Source: Escarpia spicata (lineage: Eukaryota; Annelida; Polychaeta; Sabellida; Siboglinidae). Taken from it: a stretch of DNA of 64,000 bases. Below the pieces are notes generated by a model, which had not been told where the DNA came from, made no database searches, and saw only the letters and a program-made list of their open reading frames with translations. Below are positions 32,601 to 35,600 of this stretch, piece by piece. The DNA lies in assembly GCA_963995525.1 (NCBI GenBank), contig OZ023218.1, forward strand, positions 51,168,541-51,232,540. The letters run 5' to 3'. The number at the start of each line of letters is the position of its first letter. Position 1 is the stretch's first letter. The translations under genes and the position numbers were made by a program.

Positions 32601-35600
32601 TTTAATGAACGTATGCATTTATCCATATATATAGCTTATTATGTGGTCTGAAAATCCACTTTTTGCAAATTATTTTTATACTGATGTACATTTTAGAAGT
32701 CCTATGTTTAAATACTGGACTACCCAATTGTACACATAAAGTTGTATGCACATTATATATATATATATATATTCTTTTTATTAACCATCTATTTTTTATT
32801 CCATGTGTTTCTATATCTTTGTATTTTATTTATTATTTTTTATTTACTTGTATTGTATGTATACATGAGGACTTCTGTCTTATATAATTTGATTATTTGT
32901 ATTTGCATCCACATGAAAAAATACATAGGTCTGCCTATGCAATCTACATGTGGAACTACTTCTAGTAATTTTTGCTGGATAATATATTGATTATTTTGCC
33001 ATATACCACATTCACATGTACCGTTTCCGTACATATATGGAATCCTAACTTTATCCTTCATATTATACTAGGTATACTAGGCCTTTAAATACCATCATTT
33101 TTACAGATGTACGTGTAAATACTCTGAATATATATACATATATATATGTATACAAAGTATTTACAGATATATAGACACGCGTGTGCGTGCATACACACAC
33201 GCGTGTGCATGCATATGCACACAGTACATTTGTTTGAAACCACAACATCAAATTGTGTCAAATCACTACAATTTTGCTTATTATGTCAAGTCAGTTAAGA
33301 CACTGTAGACAGCAGTGTTTTAGACATACACATTCTGTACGTGTTTAACATCCAATTAACATTTGTTTCAGGTGGTGAATAGAGATGCCATTAAAATGCT
33401 AATCACAGCAACTATTCACTCTGGAAAGATTTATGCAACAAAACACAAATCTGCTTCTCCACTCATGTATGCCTACTATGACACAGAATATCTCGGTATG
33501 TATCACCTTATCTCCAGGATACATCGAAACAGCAAATTTACCAATATTTTATATAAAGATTAATGAGTTAAAACTTAAACTACATAATCAAAGTATCCTT
33601 AATGTATGTACCTGTTCCTATGATGTCACCAAAGGTCCTGTTCTTGTAATGTCACAAGTGGTCTTGTTTGTGGGATGTCACAAGAGGTCCTATTGCAGTG
33701 GTGTCACAACTGGTCCTGTTTGTGTGATGTCACAAGTGACATAGTTTTTCTTGTGGAGGTGCTGCTCATGGCCTGTCGTCCATCCTACAGATGTTGTTCT
33801 GTCTTGAAGGTGCTGTCCATGGTCTGTCGTCCATCCTACAGATGTTGTTCTGTCTGTCTCTTGAAGGTGCTGCCCGTGGCCTGTCATCCATCCTACAGAT
33901 GTTGTTCTGTCTTGCAGGAGCTGTCCATGGTCTGTCGTCCATCCTACAGATGTTGTTCTGTCTTGCAGGTGCTGCCCATGGCCTGTCATCCATCCTACAG
34001 ATGTTGTTCTGTCCGTCTCTTGAAGGTGCTGCCCGTGGCCTGTCATCCATCCTACAGATGTTGTTCTGTCTTGCAGGTGCTGTCCATGGTCTGTCGTCCA
34101 TCCTACAGATGTTGTTCTGTCTTGCAGGTGCTGTCCATGGTCTGTCGTCCATCCTACAGATGTTGTTCTGTCTGTCTCTTGAAGGTGCTGCCCGTGGCCT
34201 GTCATCCATCCTACAGATGTTGTTCTGTCTTGCAGGTGCTGTCCATGGTCTGTCGTCCATCCTACAGATGTTGTTCTGTCCGTCTCTTGAAGGTGCTGCC
34301 CATGGCATGTCATCCATCCTACAGATATTGTACTGTGTTGCAGGTGCTGCCCATGGCCTGTCATCCATCCTACATATGTTGTTCTGTCCGTCTCTTGAAG
34401 GTGATGCCCGTGGCCTGTCATCCATCCTACAGATGTTGTTCTGTCTTGCAGGTGCTGCCCATGGCCTGTCACCCATCCTACAGATGAAGGTTTTCTGTGT
34501 TGCAGGTGCTGTCCATGGTCTGTCGTCCATCCTACAGATGTTGTTCTGTCCGTCTCTTGAAGGTGCTGCCCGTGGCCTGTCTTCCATCCTACAGATGTTG
34601 TTCTGTGTTGCAGGTGCTGTCCATGCTCTGTTGTCCATCCTACATATGTTGTTCTGTCCGTCTCTTGAAGGTGCTGCCCATGGCCTGTCATCCATCCTAC
34701 AGATGTTGTTCTGTGTTGCAGGTGCTGTCCATGGTCTGTCGTCCATCCTACAGATGTTGTTCTGTCCGTCTCTTGCATGTGCTGCCATTGGCCTGTCATC
34801 CATCCTACATATATTGTTCTGTCTTGCAGGTGCTGCCCATGGCCTGTCATCCATCCTACAGATGTTGTTCTGTCTTGAAGGTGCTGCCCATGGGCTGTCA
34901 TCCATCCTACAGATGTTGTTCTGTGTTGCAGGTGCTGCCCATGGCCTGTCATCCATCCTACAGATGTTGTTCTGTCCGTCTCTTGAAGGTGCTGCCGTTG
35001 GCCTGTCATCCAACCTACATATATTGTTCTGTCTTGCAGGTGCTGCCCATGGCCTGTCATCCATCCTACAGATGTTGTTCTGTCTTGCAGGTGCTGCCCA
35101 TGGCCTGTCATCCATCCTACAGATGTTCTGTCTTGCAGGTGCTGTCCATGGTCTGTCGTCCATCCTACAGATGTTGTTCTGTCAGTCTCTTGAAGGTGCT
35201 GCCCGTGGCCTGTCATCCATCCTACAGATATTGTTCTGTCTTGCAGGTGCTGCCCATGGCCTGTCGTCCATCCTACAGATGTTGCTGTGTTTCCCTGACA
35301 TCCTGAGGGCAGACCCCGCCATGGAGGGTGATGTGCGGGGGGCAGTGGACTTCCTGCTTGGTTTGCAGCAGGTCAACGGCAATTTTCCCTCTGCCATGGA
35401 CGAGACGGGGCACCAATGCCCCGAGGGTGAAGAGTTGGTGCACTGGTGCCATGGAGCACCAGGTGAGTACAGTTAACACAATGGGGACCAATGCCCCGAG
35501 GGTGAAGAGTACCATGAAGTTCTCACTGGATGACTGGAGTTAGTTGTTAGGGTTGTGCCATCTGTAGAGAGGTCTTGTCTATCATATAGTGCTAGTTCAT

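Follow-up and report, generated by a model that had tools for sequence, protein, structure and literature searches.

A splice-junction minisatellite in intron 2 of LANCL3 from Escarpia spicata, probably of the amphioxus mirage kind

Introduction

Minisatellite-like tandem repeats that span an exon–intron boundary, 5′ or 3′, are known from amphioxus as mirages, and many of their copies keep the AG or GT of the splice site (PMC3087553, PMC3902484). The available portions of these reports place such arrays in Adh3, in the globins BflGb6 and BflGb9, and in PGBD5, with units of 10–72 bp in Adh3 and 150–160 bp in BflGb6, and describe the globin and Adh arrays as being without effect on regular splicing (PMC3087553, PMC3902484). 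The same literature outlines a model in which new introns arise when AG/GT proto-splice sites are duplicated in tandem (cited in PMC3087553). In human segmental duplications, minisatellites at exon–intron boundaries change splicing or form introns; units there average ~30 bp and copies average 4, the repeats being classed by whether transcripts include them or lose them by splicing, and 66% of those scored as intron changes also have transcripts that retain the repeat (PMC2812944). Arrays under the name mirage were found in the amphioxus literature only, in a search that missed most subscription papers and does not imply absence from print. The available text of three further papers (PMC12783039, PMC6905558, PMC9921365) holds intronic repeats or none of the junction-copy kind.

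Here we describe an array in intron 2 of a LANCL3 gene of Escarpia spicata. It lies in a window of 64,000 nucleotides (assembly GCA_963995525.1, contig OZ023218.1, positions 51,168,541 to 51,232,540 of the forward strand), which is the whole stretch of DNA analyzed and to which coordinates refer unless a contig is named. The array is likely to be a splice-junction minisatellite of the amphioxus mirage kind, its neutral copies removed by splicing and forming no variable part of the protein. As in the amphioxus mirages, its unit is an exon–intron boundary with part of the exon. The arrays reported here also resemble mirages in that AG or GT survives in a large part of the copies though not in every one, and in occurring in several unrelated genes at donors as well as acceptors. 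Copy number differs, with 3 and 6 copies in the BflGb6 haplotypes given in the available text (PMC3087553, PMC3902484) vs 28 upstream copies in LANCL3 intron 2. Undisturbed regular splicing and length instability, somatic or between individuals, belong to the mirage class. The array here is known from one full copy in the assembly.

The remaining systems are more distant. The human boundary repeats are alike in their exon–intron position; they have on average ~4 copies scored by transcripts, compared with tens of copies in a long intron known here from genomic sequence only. The proto-splice-site model is similar in that tandem copies form a reserve of splice sites for new introns or exons; unlike in that model, no new intron or exon is shown at LANCL3. 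Coding minisatellites are VNTR proteins such as mucins. Like the intron-2 array, they have an open frame and tandem units whose length is a multiple of three, but the units here are intronic, carry a splice acceptor and pyrimidine tract, and show no coding constraint.

Results and discussion

Anatomy of LANCL3 and its intron-2 array

LANCL3 occupies four exons on the plus strand of the window, whose spliced reading is a 413-aa protein. Exon 1 (29134–29667) runs from the start codon to a GTAAAT donor, exon 2 (33372–33495) ends in phase 1 (TCG, then GTATGT), exon 3 spans 35247–35462, and exon 4 extends from 36654 to the stop codon at 37021. The spliced protein matches PF05147 (LANC_like) across residues 48–410 and also matches LANCL1/LANCL2 chains in the PDB, and in a database protein search its best named relatives are LANCL3 proteins (best 120 of 2262). 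The spliced protein, the domain match and these relatives bear out the gene model of the original prediction.

Intron 2 (33496–35246) contains a ~1.5-kb array on the plus strand (33757–35246) of 28 copies of the exon-3 acceptor plus ~38 nt of exon 3, and the array runs straight into the real acceptor at 35247. Counted with the real exon 3, which forms the last of them, unit starts number 29 and fall between 33757 and 35245; the first ~38 nt of exon 3 match the array unit. The tandem copies were correctly predicted. Among the upstream units, 16 measure 51 bp, ten 57 bp, one 54 bp and one 48 bp; each length is a multiple of three, as had been claimed. A 51-bp unit comes after each of the ten 57-bp units, forming a 108-bp higher-order repeat, and because of this constant pairing the 57-bp units count as one +6 event, so that the unit lengths reflect few events. 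The expansion of a few founder units, offered as an alternative in the original prediction, therefore fits better than coding constraint, as one 108-bp dimer covers all ten.

A hand count of the acceptors before the 29 units gave 16 GCAG and 11 GAAG, in agreement with the original counts, together with one GGAG (unit 1) and one GCAT (unit 20, AG lost). The copies look usable as acceptors because AG is kept before 28 of 29 units, and the sequence context upstream of the acceptor is alike in nearly all of them. In our strict junction-copy test, a motif of 12 + 12 nt across the junction is counted as matched when at least 18 of 24 positions are identical. For the exon-3 acceptor motif, the 2988 bp preceding the real acceptor yielded 28 matches, and 50 shuffled motifs yielded none. 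The last 15 nt of intron 2 are exactly common to 10 of 28 unit tails, including the real acceptor, so site choice cannot rest on the nearest sequence alone.

A whole-genome search of the assembly with the array returned a single full-length match. Matches on contig C10 (61–63% identity) proved to be a 43-bp minisatellite sharing pyrimidine-rich words, not a LANCL copy: no LANCL exon was seen at the site, and the LANCL3 protein search had no match there. This C10 minisatellite (L005:4396-5568, G000:C10) has 27 copies, with TTGTTCTGTCTAG in most units, and lies in no recognized gene.

The other end of exon 3 carries a partial 75-bp tandem duplication across its donor (35413–35510, plus strand), with 23-nt exact copies at 35413 and 35488. 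The strict test found no junction copies at this donor, and the junction is not recognizably duplicated in the 75-bp repeat. Perhaps a donor array is just starting to form here.

Other junction arrays in the window

Intron 3 of LANCL3 holds a second array (35990–36653, plus strand) of ~29 units, mostly 22–23 bp, each made of the exon-4 acceptor TGTTCCAG and ~14 nt of exon 4. CAG is exact in 22 of 29 units and the strict test counts 24 junction copies at acceptor 4. Of the 28 unit lengths measured, one is divisible by three.

On the minus strand lies a PDE12/CCR4-like gene, whose best PDB match is 2′,5′-phosphodiesterase 12 (E 1.8e-12) and whose Pfam match, Exo_endo_phos, is below its cut-off. 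Its exon A, ending at 6779, has a donor-junction array (5712–6811, minus strand) of ~28 units, mostly 40 bp, combining the exon tail with GTAAGTACTTCAC; GTAAGT is exact in 21 of 28 units and 27 junction copies pass the strict test. The GDFN exon of this gene, just outside the window, has a 53-bp acceptor array with 50 junction copies. Two more arrays on the same strand abut exon B (4042–3910). A 29-bp array (4046–4200) ends 4 bp before the exon and its unit family also occurs at 5153–5712, and a 24-bp array (3046–3905) begins just after the exon B donor, with GTATGT in 20 of 36 units. Neither has junction copies by the strict test. No exon was located in the stretch that separates exon B from the GDFN exon. 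A further array, of 50-bp units in ~58 copies, lies in the intron that follows exon B (1–2564 and G000:C15:51168268-51171104).

Three of nine junctions in the window lie strictly inside arrays and a fourth is 4 bp away, at the edge of tolerance. Among 3000 trials in which the window's 27 arrays were placed at random, none brought at least three of nine junctions inside arrays (mean 0.15). The observed excess is inflated locally because the window was selected for this finding.

Junction arrays elsewhere in the genome

Nine junction-copy arrays were found in addition to the one in intron 2: one in LANCL3 intron 3, two in the PDE12-like gene, two in a LANCL paralog and four at myosin exons. The ten strict arrays thus comprise six donor and four acceptor arrays in LANCL3, the PDE12-like gene, the LANCL paralog and myosins. 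The paralog, on contig C1, was located by protein search and not chosen for repeats; two of its six examined junctions carry donor arrays, of 29 and 34 bp, with 18 and 41 copies. Across the three non-myosin genes, 6 of 17 junctions have 18–50 copies by the strict test and 11 of 17 have none, and shuffled motifs gave none.

The myosin sample consisted of 78 myosin-head matches, taken as genes not chosen for repeats. Junction arrays were found at four exon ends, with 11, 18, 7 and 26 copies: a 25-bp donor array at C1:61498520, a 20-bp acceptor array at C15:39336847, a donor array with 52- and 58-bp spacings at exon C4:68658080-68658235, and a 20-bp donor array at exon C4:68659089-68659241. The sequence searched beside the matches was 1.5 kb for 30 of them, roughly at least 0.6 kb on each side for 28, and ~0.4 kb for 20. 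Only TRF rows with a period of at least 10 and at least 2.5 copies near a match end were considered. Seven flagged ends in six loci were inspected by eye (L063, L064, L053, L058, L083 and two in L077), leaving aside an AT-rich row at L022 and arrays 21–261 bp outside the matches at L070, L072, L073, L076 and L079. Because flanks, TRF rows and inspected ends were limited in this way, 4 of 78 is a lower bound, and the 78 matches are not independent since some look like near-identical paralogs or duplicate contigs. Expressed per match end, the rate (at least 4 of ~156) is similar to the 1.7% that random placement in the window gives for each junction (0.15/9, by hand). At L083 (G000:C9:44256736), a 12-bp array consists of the pyrimidine-rich end of a myosin intron up to the acceptor, without exon sequence.

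Modal unit lengths of the ten strict arrays are 51, 22, 40, 53, 29, 34, 25, 20, 52 and 20 bp. The intron-2 array is the one multiple of three among them, none of the nine further arrays having a modal unit divisible by three, and adding the two arrays that abut exon B (29 and 24 bp) gives 2 of 12. As 51 bp is the sole multiple of three among the strict arrays, no general bias toward such units is seen.

Frame, substitutions and conserved residues

From 33740 to 35476 on the plus strand, the reading frame of exon 3 stays open across both the array and the exon (578 aa stop to stop), slightly longer than the original prediction, which had it start at 33791, and all 28 upstream units are in phase with exon 3 and open, as had been foreseen. 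The minus strand through the array is likewise open (560 and 471 aa), and a second plus frame is open for 287 and 272 aa with one stop between. Such further open frames would be expected where a 51-bp unit with few stops is repeated, and they speak against a coding meaning of the exon-3 frame.

Within the 35-nt exon-derived part of the units we identified 19 distinct substitutions, 18 of which lie in whole codons of the exon frame. These 18 comprise 5 synonymous changes, 13 nonsynonymous changes and no stops. When equal numbers of transitions and transversions are placed at random, the expected values are 5.0, 12.3 and 0.5 (P = 0.66 for a nonsynonymous share at or below the observed one). This dN/dS-type comparison, which had been proposed as a check on the coding reading, shows a neutral pattern. 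The absence of stops, taken alone, is uninformative.

The His of the GAAHG motif is kept in 119 of the best 120 of 2262 LANCL3 relatives, with one gap, and is replaced by Arg, Ile or Val in 8 of 28 upstream array copies. Among the same best 120 relatives, 117 have one motif copy, two have none and one has two; the last is a nematode gene model whose copies are 322 residues apart. Eighteen proteins of array-bearing length, among the 8000 best candidates scored, each have 0 or 1 motif copy, and none of them bears an array. Neither a transcript nor a protein of LANCL3 from this species was found. Neither the codon constraint nor the conserved residues that would mark the units of a coding VNTR were found in the intron-2 array, and its copies probably drift without coding constraint. 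The original observation is confirmed, and its interpretation is partly supported: the proposals that unit lengths reflect coding constraint and that the copies form a length-variable part of the protein find no support, in view of the neutral substitutions, the loss of His from 8 of 28 copies, the lack of array-bearing proteins among the candidates scored and the off-phase modal units of the nine other arrays.

One check favors the coding proposal. Read by hand from the unit-length table, the indel types in the intron-2 array are +6, +3 and −3, all three multiples of three, compared with 2 of 16 in five other window arrays, two of which are strict junction arrays (one-sided Fisher P = 0.010, uncorrected for an array picked on this property). 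The contrast is weak because the array was picked for its phase and the −3 is one unit gone from a GTTGTT run.

Origin of the array and alternative explanations

A short tandem duplication across a splice junction would make a second splice site, with extra copies placed upstream on the acceptor side and downstream on the donor side, and hence within the intron whenever splicing takes the exon-proximal site. In LANCL3, a short duplication beginning in the first ~38 nt of exon 3 may have reached back over the acceptor, with slippage or unequal exchange then enlarging it on the intron side, the last copy presumably being held by selection on the exon. Splicing at the exon-proximal site would remove the extra copies with intron 2, because each sits on the intron side of the working acceptor, and would do so most likely through exon definition, which favors the shortest exon and is our preferred account of site choice. 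The copies would then be neutral at the RNA level; as they end up intronic, junction duplications would be tolerated and free to grow. The anatomy of the array, its higher-order structure, the neutral substitutions and the occurrence of nine more such arrays in this genome are the observations behind this reading.

A different outcome would follow if exon 2 joined different copies through in-frame alternative acceptors: LANCL3 isoforms would then differ in their number n of additional units, and protein length would be polymorphic. The 28 open, in-phase units, the AG before 28 of 29 units and the 3/3 indel phase speak for such isoforms, as does the human precedent of boundary repeats retained in transcripts (PMC2812944). 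They appear unlikely, however, in view of the unconstrained substitutions, the loss of the motif His from 8 of 28 upstream copies, the 0 or 1 motif copy in 18 array-length proteins among the 8000 best candidates scored, the one copy in 117 of the best 120 relatives, and the nine other junction arrays that are out of phase. To the same degree we doubt that the spliceosome uses upstream copies in some LANCL3 mRNAs and that phase has been kept for this reason, making a germline-variable internal VNTR out of the gene's own splice acceptor.

Frame could also matter without any use of the copies in the normal protein. If rare mis-splicing into copies is less harmful where arrays are in frame, units divisible by three may have been kept and the array may have grown as a result. 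The indel-phase contrast points this way, but it rests on three indel types, the strict arrays show no general leaning to multiples of three, and out-of-phase arrays equal or exceed this one in copy number (50 and 41 junction copies), which makes such tolerance slightly less probable again than the isoforms. Assembly error is very improbable. Tandem repeats are error-prone in general and a repeat may be collapsed or expanded with no real counterpart, but private substitutions between units, the ordered 108-bp pattern, the single full-length match in the genome and similar arrays at several unlinked places all argue against an artefact. The mirage-like minisatellite with neutral, spliced-out copies remains the reading we favor.

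Host and wider implications

The splice-junction minisatellite of LANCL3 represents a known kind in a new occurrence, in a host that is probably outside the chordates. The amphioxus mirages have a cephalochordate host, compared with Escarpia spicata here, and we treat the host as a circumstance and not a defining property of the class. In a LANCL3 tree (63 rows, 62 relatives, quick method), the window protein groups with two proteins (SH-aLRT 96) within mixed brachiopod, nemertean, annelid and also echinoderm rows, and Branchiostoma stands apart, with hemichordates. Branchiostoma LANCL3 is only 53% identical to the window protein. This identity and the grouping of Branchiostoma with hemichordates speak against an amphioxus host. 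Together with the Ridgeia match of a reverse transcriptase in the window, which as a mobile element is weak evidence by itself, the protein evidence points to an annelid, probably a siboglinid or a near relative.

Junction arrays at unlinked genes of a probable annelid suggest that such minisatellites arise wherever minisatellites are abundant. With 7 to 50 near-identical splice sites in a row, they are natural material for a direct test of the choice between equal sites. They may also be standing raw material for intron and exon change, and they can mislead gene prediction.

Rfam and tRNA searches of the window found nothing. A LINE-type reverse transcriptase copy at 45667–48108 is broken into several frames; for the frame at 46822–48108, the closest named animal match comes from Ridgeia piscesae, a protein with 86% identity over 94%. 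The minus strand also encodes an OTU-domain protein with an A20-type zinc finger at 41428–42675 (PF02338, PF01754), and a further A20 finger match, just under the cut-off, lies at 40527–40937.
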